From the NCBI RefSeq assembly GCF_000735525.1, contig NZ_JMPR01000018.1, forward strand, positions 109,857 to 173,856: a stretch of 64,000 bases of DNA, read 5' to 3'. Positions 4,847 through 12,363 of this stretch are shown here, in pieces. The translations under genes and the position numbers were made by a program. The DNA comes from Tatumella ptyseos ATCC 33301. GTDB taxonomy: Bacteria; Pseudomonadota; Gammaproteobacteria; Enterobacterales; Enterobacteriaceae. A model generated the notes under the pieces. The model did not search any database. It was not told where the DNA came from and was given only the letters and a program-made list of their open reading frames with translations. Each line of letters opens with the position of its first letter. The stretch's first letter is position 1.

Positions 4847-5545
4847 ATGTCCCCTTTACAGCTTGCTAATTTTTCAATCAATTTTGTTTTCCAGCCGATG
4901 TTTGGTAAAACCGGAGAGTTGTTAGCGGTTGAATGTTTATCGAGGATCACCGCCAACCACCAGGGGACAACAATCTCTCCGGAATTTTTTTTCCAAAGCG
5001 TCACTCCTGCCATGAGTATTGAGATCCTTAAGGCACAGATTGCTTTAATCGGGTCTTACCGTGACTGGTTTATTCGTCACAATGTGATTGTGACGGTGAA
5101 TATCGATGATAAGTCACTGGACTTTGTGAACGAGCATTACCTGTCTGAAGGCAATGCGTTTGCGGGTTTTATCCATTTTGAAGTGAATGAATCTTCAGAC
5201 AGTCTGGTACCTGAGTCTAACCAGGCCCCGGTATTCCATAAGCAGCGGACATTCTGGCTGGATGACTTTGGTTCCGGCCTTTCCGGATTCTCAGCTGTTT
5301 TCGATAATCAATTTCGTTATATTAAAATAGACCGATTTTTGTTCTGGAACTTTATGAGTAAGCCTGGCGGAAGCCAGCTGATGGGAGCGTTACTGAACTT
5401 CTTTTCATTAAATAATTGTAATGTGGTTGTCGAAGGTATTGAAACCGATCAGCATGAAAAATGGCTGTCTGAAATGCCGTACTATGCGTTACAAGGGAAG
5501 CTCTGGAAGGAGCTGACCATTGAAGAGTTGTGCTGCGCTGCCTGA
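4847..5545 (+). CDS. stand-alone EAL-domain c-di-GMP phosphodiesterase
   Basis: A 232-residue protein made of a single EAL domain with no sensor or membrane segment. The residues needed for catalysis appear in order: E29 (in VECLSR, the EAL position, with R33), N85 (VNID), E112, D139-D140 (LDDFGSG), K160 (IKID), E196 (VEGIET) and Q216 (LQGKLW). An active enzyme hydrolysing cyclic di-GMP is therefore likely, unlike the degenerate YdiV. AGGTGAG precedes ATG 4847. It is followed by a PilZ receptor gene and a convergent fimbrial operon. This resembles Klebsiella MrkJ, a small EAL protein that restrains type 3 fimbriae. Orthology is not proven. Confidence 0.85.
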   Translation: MSPLQLANFSINFVFQPMFGKTGELLAVECLSRITANHQGTTISPEFFFQSVTPAMSIEILKAQIALIGSYRDWFIRHNVIVTVNIDDKSLDFVNEHYLSEGNAFAGFIHFEVNESSDSLVPESNQAPVFHKQRTFWLDDFGSGLSGFSAVFDNQFRYIKIDRFLFWNFMSKPGGSQLMGALLNFFSLNNCNVVVEGIETDQHEKWLSEMPYYALQGKLWKELTIEELCCAA

Positions 5546-5686: not shown

Positions 5687-6394
5687 ATGGCTGGTGTTAA
5701 TACTGATCCGCAGACGCTCAGAAATGATCGTTTTGAACTGGTCGCAATCCTGCGTACCCTGCTGAAAGAAAAACATCGTTTTAGCCTCAGTTCTGAAGAG
5801 GGGCACGATTTCGAATTGCTACGTGTTGAATCCAGCCGTGTTTATCTGAGCCTCCCGCAAGCAGATTTTACCTTACCCGCAACTCTTGAACTCAGCGCAG
5901 AAGGGAGTGAAGCAAAAATTATTTTTACTCTGAATGCTGTCCGTCAGGAAGAAACCGCCGGGGGGACTGTACTGACCGGCGAGATCGGTAATGAGTTTAA
6001 TTACTTTCAACGACGTATTAACCTGCGCGTTCCGCTGCCTTTATGGAAAAACTTTACCCTGACGTTGCCGCTTTCAGGGCTTAGTGCACCCCGACCCTTT
6101 ATCATCTATGACTTTTCGGTCGGCGGATTAGGCGTTTACACACCGAAGCCGTTGTCAGAAAAAGCCAAAGTCGGCGCGGTATTTAAGAAAGCATTATTGT
6201 CTTTAGGAGAATACGGTGAGTTTAAAGCCAATATTGAGATTATTGCGCTCAGTGAACTTGAAGAAGAACTGCCGGAATACCCTGGCTATCAGCAACGGAT
6301 GTCAGTCAGGTTTACGAATCTGTCACTGATAAATCAGCGTAATTTCCAGAAAATTGCCTATGCGTTCGAAGTCAATTTTAAGCGTAAGCGATAA
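5687..6394 (+). CDS. PilZ-domain c-di-GMP receptor, YcgR/MrkH-like
   Basis: A 235-residue protein with an N-terminal YcgR-like region (1-105) and a C-terminal PilZ domain. Both c-di-GMP binding motifs are visible: RxxxR as R110-INL-R114 in FQRRINLRV, and D/NxSxxG as D142-FSVG-G147. The length matches MrkH (about 234) and YcgR (about 244). In E. coli YcgR brakes flagella, whereas Klebsiella MrkH is a c-di-GMP-dependent DNA-binding activator of fimbrial genes. Here no flagellar gene is near, and a fimbrial operon lies 132 bp away, convergent. An MrkH-like role is favoured by context only. An AAGAAGG site lies rather far (about 10 bases) from the ATG. Confidence 0.82.
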   Translation: MAGVNTDPQTLRNDRFELVAILRTLLKEKHRFSLSSEEGHDFELLRVESSRVYLSLPQADFTLPATLELSAEGSEAKIIFTLNAVRQEETAGGTVLTGEIGNEFNYFQRRINLRVPLPLWKNFTLTLPLSGLSAPRPFIIYDFSVGGLGVYTPKPLSEKAKVGAVFKKALLSLGEYGEFKANIEIIALSELEEELPEYPGYQQRMSVRFTNLSLINQRNFQKIAYAFEVNFKRKR

Positions 6395-6526: not shown

Positions 6527-7588
6527 TTATTTAAACGTTATATTGACGGTGGCAGTGGTATTGAAAGTCCCTACTGTCGGGGAATTGGTGAGCCATTTCA
6601 GATAAGCAATATACCCGACCGGGATGGTTGTCGTAGAGCTGCTGGTGATCGCAGTTGTGGTGAAGGGGTAGACCTGACCAAAGACAAGCGGTGTCCCGGT
6701 ATTACTTTGGCTCGTCAGATAAACGCCGATCCCGGGTTTCGTGGACGGAATGAGCAGAGTGGGGTCGCTGGTGCTGACATCGTTACTACTAAAACTGGCG
6801 ACCAGTTGCTGACCCACGCAGCCCCCCCCGGACACATTTGCGGTGACCGTAAACGGTATGGTTTTCGCTATTTTGCCGACCGCGGAGGTTTCACGCATGA
6901 CATTACCGAAATTGATATTTGACGGTGAAATAGTCACTGTCGGAGTACACTGTATCACACTGATATTATTGAAGTTAGTCAGGTTGGCGACATAGTTACT
7001 GTTTGGGGTGCTGTTAATGCCCAATACACCATCCACCTGAAATACGCCCGCGGTACCAATGTCTGTAAAGGTTGTTTGTGGTGCGACCCCGGTGGCTTTC
7101 AGGTAAATCGAAAAAGTAAAACTGATGGTCAGTGGTCTGGCCTGGCCGTACTTCGCATAATACGCGGAATCAAAAATCGTACCGCGCCCGACATCAATGG
7201 CTTTGGTCGCGACAGCGGTGTTAATAGAATCATAGTCTTTACCGTTGATCGTCACACCGACGCTCAGCGAAGGGTCTATTTTACTCAGACCACCCTGCGG
7301 GTTCCAATAGAGCCAGGCATCCTCTCCCCCCGGATAGCCTTGCATATCCCAGCAGGTAAAGGTGGCAGTATAGGTAGACGAACGCCATAAGACGTTACCG
7401 GCGGTAAAGTCTGATTTAGCAAAGGACACCGATCCAATCGGAAAACTTTGAGAAATAGAGCCTGTCGGTGACGGTGTGTCGGCGTAACTGCCCTGGCGGC
7501 AGGAGAGGGCGAAACTTTGCTGGCTGGCGAAAATCGCGCAGAGAACCAGCAAAGAGCCTAATAATTTTCGTAGGGTGTGCAGTGTCAT
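6527..7588 (-). CDS. fimbrial tip adhesin (two-domain, FimH/MrkD-like layout)
   Basis: A 353-residue secreted fimbrial subunit. A signal peptide (about 1-27, ending SFALS) precedes an N-terminal receptor-binding region with cysteines in ALSCRQGS and TFTCWDMQG. A C-terminal pilin domain begins near CTPTVTISPSNINFGNV, with a disulfide partner in GGGCVGQQ, and ends in the donor-strand-type NITFK tail. As the last gene after the usher, and twice the size of the pilin, it is the expected tip adhesin. GAGGAG lies 7 bases before ATG 7588. The N-terminal domain matches no adhesin I can name, so the receptor is unknown. Confidence 0.82.
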   Translation of the reverse strand: MTLHTLRKLLGSLLVLCAIFASQQSFALSCRQGSYADTPSPTGSISQSFPIGSVSFAKSDFTAGNVLWRSSTYTATFTCWDMQGYPGGEDAWLYWNPQGGLSKIDPSLSVGVTINGKDYDSINTAVATKAIDVGRGTIFDSAYYAKYGQARPLTISFTFSIYLKATGVAPQTTFTDIGTAGVFQVDGVLGINSTPNSNYVANLTNFNNISVIQCTPTVTISPSNINFGNVMRETSAVGKIAKTIPFTVTANVSGGGCVGQQLVASFSSNDVSTSDPTLLIPSTKPGIGVYLTSQSNTGTPLVFGQVYPFTTTAITSSSTTTIPVGYIAYLKWLTNSPTVGTFNTTATVNITFK

Positions 7589-7599
7589 TGCCTGGCTCC

Positions 7600-10158
7600 T
7601 CAGGGGCGTTGGCAGGTCAGTGTAATTTCCTGATATCCACTGGTTTTTGTCTGATCGGCCAGCTTATCGGGGATGAGTAAGAAACATTTATCGTTCGGGC
7701 CTTCACCCCATTTCACTGTCAGTTTTTCGCCGGCCGCAATGCCGGAGACAAACAGATCGCCTTTCATTCCCACGGTACCGCTATTACGTCCCCGGGCATT
7801 AAATACCCCCGCACCAATCTGCGGATAACTGTGATCCGGCAGGGAGGAATGAATGAGCAGGCTGTGGCCATAAAAGGTATTGAAAGTGACGCGGACAATG
7901 GCTTTCTGCATCGGGACGACCTGGATAACTGATTGCGGAATATCCAGCCCCGGACGCATCTCTTCGGTATTCAGTGCGATGGTATTGTACCGGTACGCCG
8001 TCAGGTTATTGACAATAGCGTACCCAAAGCGGTCCACTTTAACGCCTGGTGAGTTAAGGATCCCCACACCTTCGGCATTTTTCGCTTTGATGATAGCAAA
8101 GGTATCGCCCAGCGGTTGCGAAAGCGTGACTCCACCGGAGTGGACAACCAGGCCGCCACTGGCACCCAATGCCGTCTGAGTATAGTTGTTGCTGTAACTG
8201 TAACTACCGTTCAGATTACCCATACTGCCCTGATACCCCAGGTTTGCGCCGCTGTTTTGTCCGCCGGTCTGAGTATGGCCGGTCGTCACTCCGTAGCTCA
8301 GACGGTTATCATCAAGCAGGGTGCCTGAAACGCCGGTGTTATAGCTGTCGCCCGACTGCTGGTCATGTGCCAGCTGGGTGGTGGAGACAATCGCGTTATT
8401 ATTATTGTTCCAGACCAGCGGGATAGAAAGTGTCATGTTAATGCTGTTATCGGCATAACCATACTGGGAACGGGTCGACTGCCAGTAGACACCGTAGCTC
8501 ACATTTTTCCAGGCATTGGAATATCCCAGTTGCACGGTACGGGTTTTCTGACTGGTTCCCCAGTAACGTTGCTGGTTAGCATTAACATAGATACTGCCAT
8601 AACCTTTCAGGTTCTGGTTAATCGAAACTTCCATACGTTCACGCTTATTGGCATAAACGTTTGAGTAATAAGTCGCGTTATTGGTCTGCGCCCAGGCGGG
8701 TGTCCCGTCTGCAGTGTCATTCGGGTCGATATAGTCGCTTTCGTATTGACCATCTTTCCAGTCACGCCTTTCCTGCACGGCATCACTGAAATCATAATAT
8801 CCGGAGGTCGAATAACGGTACCCTGCCAGCCGGAAATCGGTACCGAAATCACTTAATGACTTCGCATATAAAAGACGATAGCTCTGACCTTCTTTGGTAT
8901 CACCGGAAGCCAGATTAGTTTTGGCGTAACTGCCATCCAGGGAAACCGCACCCAGATCACCCAGACCGGTCCCCATACCCAGCACGGCCGACTGATAGTT
9001 GTCGGCGACAATCACACCGCCGTACGGCGTCAGATTATGGCTGATCCCGCGGGCCACGGTACCCTGAATAAACTGCGGCTGATAACCGCTGATACCATCA
9101 TGGTAACGACCGGCGGTGACCTCATAGTTCCACAATCCGTTACGCAACATACTGGTGACAGATGAATAGGCAACGGTAAAGGTTTTCCTGGAACCATCGG
9201 CTTCCGTCACGGTGACATACAGCGTACCGCTGCTATTGGGATAGAGATCACTGATAGCAAACGGACCCGGCGGCACTGTCGTGCTGTAGACCAGGTAACC
9301 GTTCTGGCGGATAGTGACCCGGGCGTTGGAGGTCGCTACCCCCCGGACGACCGGTGCATAACTCCGCATACTTTCCGGCAGCATGTCATCGACACTACTG
9401 AGTTTGACTCCGCGAAACTGGATGCTGTCAAAGACACTGTTGCTGGTAGAGGACTGGCCCACCAGAAAACGGCTGCGCATAGCAATAATATCGGTTTCTG
9501 CCCAACTGGAAATATTATTCCAATGAGAGCCGGTAATATTATCATGGGTATAGTTGCCGTTTTGACGTAAACGCCAGCGGCCAAGGTTCAGGCCATTATT
9601 TAGCGACAAATACGTATATTCGTTATTATCGGCGACGGATGAACCGCGATAATTGTTTTTGTCGTAGTTGAGCGTGTAATTAACAAATCCGGCATTCACC
9701 CCCTGGTCCCAGATACGGGTAGGGATGTATCCCTGAGGAAGCGTTTTCAGGTGGGTTTGCGGGACTGCCAGATCGATACGTTGCTGAGTAATATCTGCGG
9801 CGACTTTGGCATCCGGGATATATTTACTGATATCAATACATTGCTTACCGGCCAGAGGGGCGGGAAGAATAATACCATATCCGTACAATTGCTCAGTACT
9901 AAAACAAGGACGAACACCTTCCGGCGTTCGGATAAATGTCACCGGCAGGCTATCGACTTTTTGGGAGTTCAGATAAATATCGAACGGGTAAGTGCCTGGC
10001 TGAATACTGTCACCGACCGACACCTGACGTGCTGCATTGAGATTGCCTGCACCATGAACGAATTGCATATTAAACTCTTCCGCACTCGCTCCTGACATTG
10101 CCAGCAGACCGGGGAGCGCAATAACCAGCGACAAAGAGTAACGTGTTTTTATTTTCAT
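7600..10158 (-). CDS. fimbrial outer-membrane usher
   Basis: An 852-residue usher of the chaperone-usher pathway, which catalyses subunit ordering and secretes the pilus through the outer membrane. A signal peptide (1-26, ASA/EEF) leads to the periplasmic N-domain (FNMQFVHG). The 24-strand barrel region is interrupted by the plug, which includes RSYAPVVRGVATSNARVTIRQNG and the VPPGPFAISDLYPN motif. C-terminal domains follow, ending in a cysteine pair (CFLL and TCQRP). All are typical, and the length is normal. It sits 11 bp before the adhesin gene and 23 bp after the chaperone. It is clearly an FimD/MrkC/PapC-type usher; the exact clade is not assigned. Confidence 0.95.
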   Translation of the reverse strand: MKIKTRYSLSLVIALPGLLAMSGASAEEFNMQFVHGAGNLNAARQVSVGDSIQPGTYPFDIYLNSQKVDSLPVTFIRTPEGVRPCFSTEQLYGYGIILPAPLAGKQCIDISKYIPDAKVAADITQQRIDLAVPQTHLKTLPQGYIPTRIWDQGVNAGFVNYTLNYDKNNYRGSSVADNNEYTYLSLNNGLNLGRWRLRQNGNYTHDNITGSHWNNISSWAETDIIAMRSRFLVGQSSTSNSVFDSIQFRGVKLSSVDDMLPESMRSYAPVVRGVATSNARVTIRQNGYLVYSTTVPPGPFAISDLYPNSSGTLYVTVTEADGSRKTFTVAYSSVTSMLRNGLWNYEVTAGRYHDGISGYQPQFIQGTVARGISHNLTPYGGVIVADNYQSAVLGMGTGLGDLGAVSLDGSYAKTNLASGDTKEGQSYRLLYAKSLSDFGTDFRLAGYRYSTSGYYDFSDAVQERRDWKDGQYESDYIDPNDTADGTPAWAQTNNATYYSNVYANKRERMEVSINQNLKGYGSIYVNANQQRYWGTSQKTRTVQLGYSNAWKNVSYGVYWQSTRSQYGYADNSINMTLSIPLVWNNNNNAIVSTTQLAHDQQSGDSYNTGVSGTLLDDNRLSYGVTTGHTQTGGQNSGANLGYQGSMGNLNGSYSYSNNYTQTALGASGGLVVHSGGVTLSQPLGDTFAIIKAKNAEGVGILNSPGVKVDRFGYAIVNNLTAYRYNTIALNTEEMRPGLDIPQSVIQVVPMQKAIVRVTFNTFYGHSLLIHSSLPDHSYPQIGAGVFNARGRNSGTVGMKGDLFVSGIAAGEKLTVKWGEGPNDKCFLLIPDKLADQTKTSGYQEITLTCQRP

Positions 10159-10181: not shown

Positions 10182-10865
10182 TTATTTAACCGGAAAGTTG
10201 TTTACTTCGGTGGTCCCACCATAATCATTAACATAGCTGAATGAGACGGTAGACCCGAGCTGAGTATTTGCCGGAAGAGTAAACGCTCTGGTAGAAAAAG
10301 GTGAGACCATATCCAGATAAATATCCTGAGCACTTTCCTTATTCAGGTGCAGACGGTTCAGCGAGATATACATCGGGCCATTATTGGTCACGGTTAACTT
10401 ATTGCCGTTTTGTGTCCATATCAGTTTCTGCACTTCTTTATCTAAGGTCGTATTCAGGCCCTGAGGACGATAAAAAAGCTTTAAGCGGCTATGAACGGCA
10501 ATTTGCAGAACATTAGGATCTTTTGCCTCCGGAGGAATTTCCTGAAGATTAATCCAGAATAATGACTCACGGTTAGTCGGTAATCCATGACCGGCGTAAA
10601 TAAAACGCAGTGTGGCCTCTTTACCCGCATCGATTCGCATAATGGGCGGGATCACCTGCATCGGGATCGGCGCATTACTGCTGCGATCTTCGTTTTCCAG
10701 CCAGCTTTGTAACATGTAGTTCTGGTTACTCTCATTTTTTAATGAGAGTGACGCAGAACTGCTGCCTGAATTATAAATGACTCTGGTGGCCTCCAGTTGT
10801 ATTGCTGCAAACGATGAGACTGAAAACAGCTGGAGCAGTACAAAAAAGATAAACTTCTTCATCAT
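10182..10865 (-). CDS. periplasmic fimbrial chaperone (PapD/FimC family)
   Basis: A 227-residue periplasmic chaperone with two immunoglobulin-like domains. A signal peptide (SSFAA / IQLEATRVIY) is followed by the conserved arginine of the TRVIY strand. HSRLKLFYRPQGL is the family signature with the subunit-anchoring lysine, and NNGPMYISL begins domain 2. It donates a strand to fold pilins and delivers them to the usher. The start is placed at ATG 10865, where AGGA precedes, rather than at the upstream alternative 10883; ATG 10862 is also possible. It is the second gene of the fimbrial operon, 32 bp after the pilin gene. Confidence 0.93.
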   Translation of the reverse strand: MMKKFIFFVLLQLFSVSSFAAIQLEATRVIYNSGSSSASLSLKNESNQNYMLQSWLENEDRSSNAPIPMQVIPPIMRIDAGKEATLRFIYAGHGLPTNRESLFWINLQEIPPEAKDPNVLQIAVHSRLKLFYRPQGLNTTLDKEVQKLIWTQNGNKLTVTNNGPMYISLNRLHLNKESAQDIYLDMVSPFSTRAFTLPANTQLGSTVSFSYVNDYGGTTEVNNFPVK

Positions 10866-10897
10866 TAGTTCCTGTTTTTCCACCAGAGTATTAGCTG

Positions 10898-11440
10898 TTA
10901 CTGATATTCGATAGAGAAATTAGTGGTGGCGTTAGCCTGTCCGCTCGGGGTGCCTTTTGCGAATGCATAGTATCTGGCAGCCAGTTTGATATTCAACGCG
11001 CCAGTAGAGTCTGTTGCCTGGAAAGGTACAGAACTGCTGGTATCACCGATAGTATAAACTCCCCCGCTCGCTAAATCCGTAATCTGAATACCGACACTTG
11101 TTGACGGATCAGTACCGGCTACACCGGTCGGAGTCAGTTTCAGTAAGGACGGGTATCCTGAAACTGCAGTACCATCAAAGCGAACTTTGATTGAACCGGT
11201 AGTACATTTGCTCAGGTCGATTTCAAAAGGACGCGGGCCGGCAGTCTGGGTCGGGGAAGACAGTGCTGAGCTTGAATAGTTACCCATCGCCACAGAGATA
11301 GTTTGGTTGGTGGCATTGGTCACTACGCAACCTGACTGCGTGATGCTACCGGTAAAGGAAACGGTTCCATCCGAAGCAAATGTCTGCACTGATGCCAGAG
11401 TTAAGGTTAATGCTGCTATTGGTAACAGAACTTTTTTCAT
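10898..11440 (-). CDS. major fimbrial pilin subunit, FimA-like
   Basis: A 180-residue pilin with a signal peptide (MKKVLLPIAA to QTFAS). Two cysteines (GCVVTNATN and DLSKCTTGS) form the usual disulfide, and the C-terminus NFSIEYQ matches the beta-zipper motif with penultimate tyrosine bound by chaperones. The start is ATG 11440 with GGGGTAG upstream; the longer frame to 11686 is non-coding leader. The sequence looks nearer to type 1 (FimA) than to Klebsiella MrkA pilins. As first gene of pilin-chaperone-usher-adhesin, it should be the most abundant product. Confidence 0.92.
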   Translation of the reverse strand: MKKVLLPIAALTLTLASVQTFASDGTVSFTGSITQSGCVVTNATNQTISVAMGNYSSSALSSPTQTAGPRPFEIDLSKCTTGSIKVRFDGTAVSGYPSLLKLTPTGVAGTDPSTSVGIQITDLASGGVYTIGDTSSSVPFQATDSTGALNIKLAARYYAFAKGTPSGQANATTNFSIEYQ

Positions 11441-11573
11441 TTTACTACCCCATGACTGATTAAAAATAATGATGAAATGTAAGGTTGAGTTCCTCTGGGA
11501 ACCTGTCGGGGCTCTGCCATTCTGATAACCAGCCTTAAGGGCAAACACATCAGGAAGCATCTCCGTGAACAAA

Positions 11574-11579
11574 AATATA
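11574..11579 (-). promoter_or_regulatory. candidate -10 of the pilin promoter
   Basis: TATATT on the minus strand lies about 135 bp upstream of the pilin ATG. At 17-bp spacing no good -35 hexamer exists; one of the TATCAA repeats overlaps that position instead, as would fit an activator-dependent promoter. Weak, pattern-only evidence. Confidence 0.3.
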
Positions 11580-11598
11580 TCACCTGAAATGCGTGGTA

Positions 11599-11748
11599 TT
11601 GATAGGAGCTGAAAATTGATAAGGCTTCTTTGATAGTTAAGTTCTGTTTTACTTTTTGACCAGCAAAGAGATCCATTCATTAACATAACTGTCGAAATAC
11701 TGTCATATTCCTGAATAGTGTTCTCTTTTGGTCAATATCTTATTGATA
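11599..11748 (-). promoter_or_regulatory. four TATCAA hexamers upstream of the pilin gene
   Basis: On the minus strand TATCAA occurs at 11599-11604, 11616-11621, 11630-11635 and 11743-11748. By chance a given hexamer is expected less than 0.1 time in this span. The fourth belongs to an inverted repeat (TCAATA/TATTGA, 11732-11746). From memory, the MrkH box of Klebsiella type 3 fimbrial promoters is built on TATCAA, and a MrkH-like PilZ gene lies beyond the operon. A c-di-GMP-responsive activator site is the inference. Confidence 0.5.
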
Positions 11749-11988
11749 TGGCGGATCTTCCCGTTTCAGGTTCGTTGGCAGTGGTCAGGGCATAACACAC
11801 CCCTTTTTTCAGACGAAAATAGGGTATTAACCCGCATGTTCGCAGGCAGAACGGAAAAAAAAATCCAATAACGGCGAAAATTCATCAAAACGCACGCAGG
11901 AGGCCGTGATAAACGGACAGAATGCCGGGGAAATGGTCGGGAAATGACTGTCAGAAACAGCACCCCCGGGAGGGGGCGCGGGGAAAGA

Positions 11989-12363
11989 TTACTTTACGGT
12001 AAAGATATAAGTCCCGGTGGTTTTATGCCCATCAACAGACAGCGCATGCCAGGCGACCTGATATTCACCCGCAGACAGAGGCGCATTCAGCGGGACCACC
12101 AGCGTATTTTTTTCCTGGTCGCTGAGTGAGGCTTTGCCGGTACTGACCGTTTTATCGCCCTGGTATGTCACCGTGGCATTACTGAATGACGGCTCCAGAT
12201 CTTCAGAAAAATGCAGTGTTAAGCGGGTGGGGCTGGTGGTGAGCTGGCTTTGCGGTGCCGGTTCGGCTGAGGTCAGATGTGCATGGGCCAGTACCGCCGT
12301 GCTGGTCAGCGCGGACACAAGCAGGGCGGTCGTGACGGCCAAAGATTTTACTGAAAAAGACAT
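11989..12363 (-). CDS. yobA: CopC-domain periplasmic copper-binding protein YobA
   Basis: A 124-residue secreted protein. The signal peptide ends at STAVLA, giving a mature N-terminus HAHLTSAEPA with the first histidine of the CopC copper(II) site. The second conserved histidine lies in HALSVDGHKTTGTYIFTVK at the C-terminus. Length and sequence match E. coli YobA. In E. coli it is followed by yebZ, a CopD-like membrane protein, and yebY. Here no such genes follow, so it stands alone. It probably binds or carries copper in the periplasm. The direct function of orphan CopC proteins is not settled. Confidence 0.85.
   Translation of the reverse strand: MSFSVKSLAVTTALLVSALTSTAVLAHAHLTSAEPAPQSQLTTSPTRLTLHFSEDLEPSFSNATVTYQGDKTVSTGKASLSDQEKNTLVVPLNAPLSAGEYQVAWHALSVDGHKTTGTYIFTVK

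Follow-up and report, generated by a model that had tools for sequence, protein, structure and literature searches.

The locus described here, in Tatumella ptyseos ATCC 33301, raises the question of whether a chaperone-usher fimbrial operon with a PilZ and an EAL gene beside it, and with a cluster of TATCAA words before its pilin gene, is governed by c-di-GMP in the manner of mrkH and mrkJ in Klebsiella. An earlier note on the stretch of DNA analysed (64,000 nucleotides, referred to below as the window) had proposed a switch of this kind, driving a pilus other than type 3. Our results uphold the EAL enzyme, two conserved promoter sites and the different pilus as parts of that proposal, and they speak rather against the PilZ protein as the MrkH of the circuit. 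Since this protein falls outside the MrkH clade and the MrkH box proves a poor guide to MrkH, the locus may function in the manner of mrkH/mrkJ and yet not be a copy of it. We tentatively favour this reading of a c-di-GMP-governed adhesin promoter, with a confidence that stays a little below an even chance.

The operon and its paired promoter sites

The operon is ordered pilin, chaperone, usher and adhesin, and the EAL and PilZ genes run toward its far end (Table 1). Its usher is 33% identical to MrkC of the Klebsiella-type locus L044 and 50-57% identical to the ushers of Trabulsiella and Serratia. Judged by the usher sequence, which is not of the MrkC type, the Tatumella pilus is not a type 3 fimbria, in agreement with what the earlier note had supposed. 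In L078 and L079, two Tatumella loci of 18.7 kb, a search for an MrkI-like gene (LuxR type) gave no match at E<=1e-5.

Table 1. Features of the locus and of related site pairs; positions refer to the window unless another locus is named
Feature	Position	Strand	Remarks
MrkJ-group stand-alone EAL protein, 232 aa, probable phosphodiesterase	4847..5545	+	Pfam EAL, tree
YcgR-like two-domain PilZ protein, 235 aa, RxxxR and DxSxxG	5687..6394	+	NCBIfam YcgR model, trees
Tip adhesin, Fimbrial domain at C end	6527..7588	-	
Outer membrane usher, FimD-like rather than MrkC-like	7600..10158	-	
Periplasmic chaperone, PapD type	10182..10883	-	
Major pilin, FimA/FimF-like	10898..11440	-	
Conserved leader segment, possible small hairpin CTGAT..ATCAG	11522..11553	-	alignment and folding
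Predicted -10 TATATT with upstream TGn	11574..11579	-	sequence, chosen by eye
Proximal site CTCCTATCAATA	11597..11608	-	9/12 to mrkA box
Middle TATCAA hexamer	11616..11621	-	window only; TATCCA or AATCCA in other species (aligned upstream regions)
Distal site TAACTATCAAAG	11628..11639	-	9/12 to mrkA box; 31 bp upstream of proximal site
Far TATCAA hexamer	11743..11748	-	window only (aligned upstream regions, 4 species)
Second site pair	L187 5322-5763 (G295), L188 5000-5422 (G283)		upstream of collagen-repeat autotransporter gene
One-mismatch site pair	L197 1500-1678 (own genome, C16:36706)		upstream of BapA_N giant adhesin gene

Four TATCAA hexamers lie on the minus (coding) strand (11599-11604, 11616-11621, 11630-11635 and 11743-11748), with the pilin ATG at 11440 downstream of them, and the earlier claim that three of them within 37 bp exceed chance was borne out. 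The hexamer itself is not rare, since the whole 64-kb window holds 37 matches against 30 expected. The clustering, in contrast, is genuine and well beyond what chance gives: any cluster of three in 37 bp appeared in 1 of 300 shuffles of the whole window and in none of 2000 shuffles of the 549 bp between the pilin start and the CopC gene, and four hexamers on the same strand were likewise reached in 0 of 2000 shuffles of those 549 bp. The pilin reading frame remains open as far as an ATG at 11686, so that the three clustered sites fall within an open frame; homologous pilins begin at 11440, not at 11686.

Six Tatumella genomes were compared (G000, which is the window's own, G098, G283, G295, G209 and G296), and the operon together with the EAL gene is found in four of them (G000, G098, G283 and G295). 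The conservation of the hexamers in sister genomes, which the earlier note had made a point of its proposal, held for the sites at 11630 and 11599 and failed for those at 11616 and 11743. The site at 11630 reads TATCAA in all four operon-bearing species, and AACTATCAA at the distal site is identical in the four; the site at 11599 reads TATCAA in two of them and TATCAC in the other two. In the alignment of the upstream regions CTATCA is kept in 4/4 at both the proximal and the distal position, within surroundings that are poorly conserved. In the window these two sites lie 56 and 25 bp upstream of the predicted TG-extended -10 element, and since the proximal one occupies the expected -35 position, the promoter looks activator-dependent. 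The aligned -10-like element, preceded by TGn, is TATATT in two species and TAATCT, a poor match, in G283 and G295. The strongly conserved leader segment (11522-11553) yields its putative hairpin in the folds of 4/4 Tatumella species, the folding energies being unremarkable (z -0.08 to -1.35); the hairpin was absent from the best fold of MAG L098; an Rfam scan of 10800-12000 returned one match, far under its threshold. We saw no MrkH-type box in front of the EAL gene or the PilZ gene.

The MrkH box has been placed at -84 to -73 of mrkA, with a length of 12 bp (PMC3828302, in part), in a promoter with the -10 TATATT and a poor -35, TTAATG (PMC3161979, in part). Counted from the published positions, it reads CATCTATCAATG on the Klebsiella-type locus L044; two other sources print the box as GATCTATCAATG (PMC5023117) and give a promoter containing CATCTATCAA (PMC5650617). 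Thirty-three promoters, one of them of 318 bp only, were scanned for this 12-mer with 200 shuffles. The proximal site of G098 is CATCTATCAATG, 12/12 to the mrkA box, and a Pseudocitrobacter promoter reaches 11/12, in both cases with 0/200 shuffles as good; the distal site of G283 matches at 10/12 (15/200 shuffles as good), and the 9/12 of each of the window's two sites was equalled by 81/200 shuffles. Within two mismatches, the mrkA box was not found in 12 of the 13 mrk promoters scanned, and the CTATCA site of Serratia matches it at only 7/12, so the box alone is no proof of MrkH, and it is a poor marker of this protein. No close box was found within 350 bp of the pilin gene in Trabulsiella, Yokenella and Buttiauxella, in which MrkH-clade genes are present. 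A survey of 23 promoters for CTATCA, within 350 bp of the pilin gene and without shuffles, found it in 7/12 EAL-linked against 2/11 unlinked cases; as a marker of EAL linkage it was dropped, because the seven EAL-linked cases come from few genera.

The exact pattern CTATCA-N25-CTATCA was searched in the six Tatumella genomes, with the reversed pattern as control. The window's genome has a single copy, the pilin promoter, G098 and G296 have one each, G283 and G295 two each and G209 none; the reversed control gave 0 copies in 6/6 genomes. Four of these seven copies stand before a pilin gene, two before an autotransporter gene and one, that of G296, within a 463-codon open frame. The second copies of G283 and G295 are intergenic, about 390-440 bp upstream of a gene coding for an ESPR signal and collagen repeats (Pfam ESPR, Collagen), and in G283 also for an autotransporter domain; no gene of this kind was found in the 1.5 kb at the corresponding place of the other four Tatumella genomes. 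With one mismatch allowed, the window's genome yields 14 copies of the pair against 11 in the reversed control, close enough to background for most of them to be noise, and the copy in the BapA promoter could be chance. The second site of that copy, CAGCTATCAATT, matches the mrkA box at 10/12, and the BapA_N gene (85.2 bits, cut-off 27) begins about 145 bp downstream of it; the gene runs off the end of its contig. Distances from TATCA to TATATT are 67 in mrkA, 58 in Serratia, 56 and 25 in the window and 36 in BapA, near one helix face, with other -10-like words existing in some of these promoters. No good -10 at a matching distance from the sites was found in G283, in G295 and in the autotransporter promoters.

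The EAL and PilZ proteins

The EAL protein scores 80.1 bits with Pfam EAL against a cut-off of 31.3, and residues E29, N85, E112, D139, D140, K160, E196 and Q216, which we take to be its catalytic residues, are invariant in an alignment of seven rows. By these features it is probably a phosphodiesterase. In a quick tree made without bootstrap, 31 fimbria-linked rows grouped together, apart from 47 PdeH-like rows (SH-aLRT 95), and the Tatumella protein adjoined that of Serratia (92). This tree left out L099, L101, L103 and L106, carried L078 and L079 as L031 and L032, and drew its 47 PdeH-like rows from the 50 numbered L108-L157, from which the longer frames had been removed. Identity is 41% to MrkJ of L044 and 51-54% to the nearest relatives, in Serratia. 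On this sequence evidence the EAL protein is a member of the MrkJ group and does not go with PdeH, and both its intact motif residues and its kinship with MrkJ had been correctly anticipated.

The PilZ protein carries both binding motifs, RxxxR and DxSxxG, as the earlier note had read them, and it scores 20.1 bits with Pfam PilZ, under the cut-off of 22.5. The NCBIfam YcgR model covers it nearly end to end (residues 7-232) at 72.2 bits, with a cut-off of 400; across the Tatumella PilZ proteins the scores are 65-72 bits against this equivalog cut-off. Searches of its own genome gave one match at E<=10 with the protein's own sequence and one with the YcgR model (71.9 bits), and no match with Pfam PilZ at E<=0.001; it is the only protein of its kind found in the genome. 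A comparison of the PilZ protein with plasmids gave no match.

The earlier note had called for a phylogeny of this protein with MrkH and YcgR, and would have counted a grouping with flagellar YcgR against its proposal. The groups recovered were the MrkH clade (16 rows, 100/100, without the window PilZ), YcgR (12 rows, 99/98), Serratia and near genera (7 rows, 87/85), and Tatumella with one row of the sister genus (7 rows, 100/100), so that the window PilZ stands outside the MrkH clade and outside the YcgR clade too. The first tree omitted the G017 fragment and had two long N-termini trimmed, and the second omitted seven near-duplicate rows. In topology tests the Tatumella PilZ could be joined to the MrkH clade (p-AU 0.20) or to YcgR (p-AU 0.30), neither arrangement being rejected; the best tree places it with the Serratia-type PilZ, weakly (72/67). 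MrkH is reported to contact DNA through R125, K127, K154, K163, K207 and R209 (PMC5055493); in a polarisation assay in the same paper, K154, K163 and K207 could each be changed singly with little consequence. The window PilZ keeps one of the six, K163. At position 125, K or R is present in 16/16 MrkH-clade rows, in 0/7 Tatumella and sister-genus rows and in 2/12 YcgR rows; several of the six residues are also missing in some MrkH-clade rows. Two Trabulsiella genomes hold a YcgR over the cut-off of its model and a separate MrkH-clade protein, so the two can coexist. The description of the PilZ protein as MrkH-like is not supported: it lies outside that clade, lacks 5/6 DNA-contact residues and is kept in two species without the operon and the EAL gene. 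That it acts as the MrkH of this circuit is possible, with its sequence speaking rather against it.

Distribution of the locus and exchange of pili

The PilZ gene is present in 6/6 Tatumella. Its neighbours in G209 and G296 are the gene of the PTR2 transporter on one side and that of CopC on the other, and no EAL gene or operon is found there. In an unrooted tree of two transporters G209 groups with G283 and G295, and from this placement we infer that the operon and the EAL gene were probably lost in G209 and PilZ retained. Pairwise dN/dS of the G209 PilZ is low, about 0.10-0.12 against the three species with unsaturated synonymous sites. In the sister genus, G154 and G371 bear an operon whose usher is 61-62% identical; no EAL or PilZ match was found in their 19.5-kb operon loci, and the PilZ gene of G154 is on a contig separate from the operon.

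Possible association of PilZ with flagella was considered as well. A PilZ gene following FliG, as seen in 5/6 Tatumella, was rejected as a rule, since G296 has PilZ but no FliG match. In that genome the PilZ gene (C39:82614-83291; L158 9591-10298) is kept without a FliG match, this fimbria or the EAL gene. The only FliG match of the window's genome (C18:61762-62085) is the 345-aa form, and G098 has both the 345-aa and a 331-aa form; the window's species may thus have lost a primary flagellum.

An usher of the group to which the window's belongs (E <= 1e-210) is present in 32 of 392 family genomes, and the usher neighbourhoods were drawn from 27 loci and five genomes (G000, G098, G283, G199 and G274). 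An EAL gene is adjacent in 19/32 of these operons. Among genomes that are not independent of one another, a PilZ gene is adjacent in 13/19 operons with an EAL neighbour and in 0/13 without one. Four named genera, Trabulsiella, Yokenella, Buttiauxella and Pseudocitrobacter, and also MAG L098 combine this type of pilus with MrkH-clade genes. G298 has an MrkH-like gene (40% to that of Erwinia) and an MrkI-like gene beside an operon with a 63% usher. Some neighbouring genes are common to L048, a Trabulsiella locus, and to L044, the mrk locus of Klebsiella type. In G298 the MrkJ-like gene next to the window-type operon (L161 6065-6758) is split by a frame change, and a transposase-like coding sequence was recognised by eye upstream of the pilin gene.

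An exchange of the operon is seen in Serratia. Between the loci L095 of S. marcescens MSU97 and L107 of S. nevei, the left and the right flank each show about 96% identity, and the intervening 5.2-kb operon (L095 3407-8577) shows one 288-bp match to L107, at 67%. From 74 bp before the pilin start of L095 the two are alike again, through the promoter and the EAL gene. The usher of L095 is MrkC-like (43%) and that of L107 window-like (56%). The pairs L081/L085 (about 95%) and L080/L082 (about 85%) show a like operon exchange, and CTATCA is kept in 10/10 aligned Serratia pilin promoters, from closely related loci. In Serratia, then, the promoter and the EAL gene stay and the fimbrial operon under them is exchanged, and a control region, to judge from these relatives, can persist as the entire pilus behind it is exchanged. 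The pairing of c-di-GMP control of the mrkH/mrkJ kind with another pilus is a general pattern; the earlier suggestion of a control module joined to a different pilus gains from the four genera with MrkH-clade genes and this pilus, and from the Serratia exchange. In Serratia symbiotica (L106) the fimbrial locus is decayed, with usher and adhesin in many fragments and EAL in two.

A literature search, with subscription papers mostly outside its scope, found no paper on the Tatumella locus or on the Serratia exchange. In the Serratia swaps a different pilus stands under a promoter and EAL segment of about 85-96% identity, which lets regulation and adhesin be separated. Tatumella, with a box-like site pair, an MrkJ-group enzyme and no MrkH-clade protein seen, offers a natural test of what reads the box.

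Proposed control and comparison with known systems

We propose that at high c-di-GMP an activator would bind both sites, three helical turns apart, and would recruit RNA polymerase to the pilin promoter and to other adhesin promoters, and that the EAL enzyme, by degrading c-di-GMP, would shut adhesin activation off. The activator may be the adjacent PilZ protein, a core receptor beside the EAL gene and the operon; this is the least certain step. A broader reading, which we regard as unlikely, is that of an adhesin-wide c-di-GMP regulon (fimbria, collagen-like autotransporter and BapA-type adhesin), with an MrkH-type two-site operator read without an MrkH-clade protein, and with control regions that stay while pilus operons are exchanged in Enterobacterales. 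The reader of the operator would then be either an independently recruited YcgR-like PilZ or an older third factor on which the MrkH of Klebsiella leans.

The part given to PilZ may be mistaken. This protein could be a core YcgR-like receptor acting on a protein, in the flagellar motor or elsewhere, and not on DNA, with the fimbrial operon and the EAL gene merely flanking it; the operator would be real and would be read by another activator, whose c-di-GMP the EAL enzyme tunes. We consider this almost as likely as the reading that we favour. It would agree with a PilZ gene found in all six Tatumella and in G154 of the sister genus, with its stay between the transporter and CopC genes in G209 and G296 without fimbria or EAL, and with the absence of most MrkH DNA-contact residues. 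The nearest relatives in the best tree (72/67, weak) come from Serratia and near genera, each with a single PilZ protein, and in the 19.5-kb loci of these Serratia-type proteins neither the fimbrial proteins nor the EAL protein of the window were found. For Klebsiella, too, a 'protein X' has been proposed as a reader of the MrkH box (PMC5055493). It fits less well that no second PilZ protein was found in the genome and that the Tatumella proteins score 65-72 bits with the YcgR model, far from its cut-off; and since PilZ is kept in G296 without a FliG match, a flagellar brake alone is no explanation there.

Other readings concern the sites themselves. The IHF consensus starts WATCAA, and fimbrial promoters are often targets of IHF or H-NS, so that the TATCAA words could be parts of IHF sites or of AT-rich DNA bound by nucleoid proteins, with no dedicated c-di-GMP control. 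H-NS does act at mrk promoters (PMC5344390, in part). However, the TTR half of the IHF consensus is missing at each conserved site of the pilin promoter and at the autotransporter and BapA sites; the paired sites keep their 31-bp spacing, which is seen again at a second promoter, and we hold this reading to be quite improbable. For an OxyR-like activator as owner of the sites the chance appears slight indeed. An OxyR study in S. marcescens reportedly concerned attachment, and ATAG-N7-CTAT was seen by eye in 10/10 aligned Serratia promoters; yet, compared by eye with the OxyR consensus, the CTAT of Tatumella stands in a direct repeat without an ATAG partner, and Serratia is without a second dyad. 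The study on S. marcescens OxyR and attachment is cited in PMC3726613 (in part).

The c-di-GMP-governed adhesin promoter that we favour is best seen against the systems already described. Klebsiella mrkABCDF/mrkHI/mrkJ shares with Tatumella the PilZ and stand-alone EAL genes beside a chaperone-usher operon, the EAL being of the same group, and a CTATCAA-containing box upstream of a weak promoter. It differs in its usher group, in MrkI, which was not found in Tatumella, and in gene order, which is EAL-PilZ in Tatumella; the Tatumella PilZ is of another lineage, with most MrkH DNA-contact residues missing, and Klebsiella has one box, at -78.5, whereas Tatumella has a pair of sites spaced by 31 bp. 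Trabulsiella, Yokenella, Buttiauxella and Pseudocitrobacter (L087-L091), as well as G298 and G064, have the usher group of Tatumella and an adjacent MrkJ-group or MrkJ-like EAL gene. Unlike Tatumella, the genera of L087-L091 and G064 have a PilZ that is a member of the MrkH clade, and several of these loci have an MrkI-like gene; the PilZ of G298, again unlike that of Tatumella, is MrkH-like, by similarity only.

The Serratia loci (L080-L086, L095, L104 and L107) resemble Tatumella in having CTATCA at the pilin promoter, but a single one, and in coding for the nearest relatives of its EAL protein; in contrast, their EAL gene is divergent from the pilin gene, there is no PilZ gene, and two usher groups occur at one place. 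In the type 1-like fimbriae of Klebsiella, FimK and Fim2K likewise tie an EAL gene to an operon of the FimA type (PMC3419637, in part), although located at the end of the operon, unlike the Tatumella gene. According to that source, FimK has an N-terminal HTH domain and Fim2K is without it, and it is by this description that we set them apart from the Tatumella EAL protein. Finally, the YcgR flagellar brake has the two-domain architecture that matches the Tatumella PilZ nearly end to end, but the Tatumella protein reaches about 72 bits against the cut-off of 400, forms a separate clade and is kept in G296 without a FliG match.
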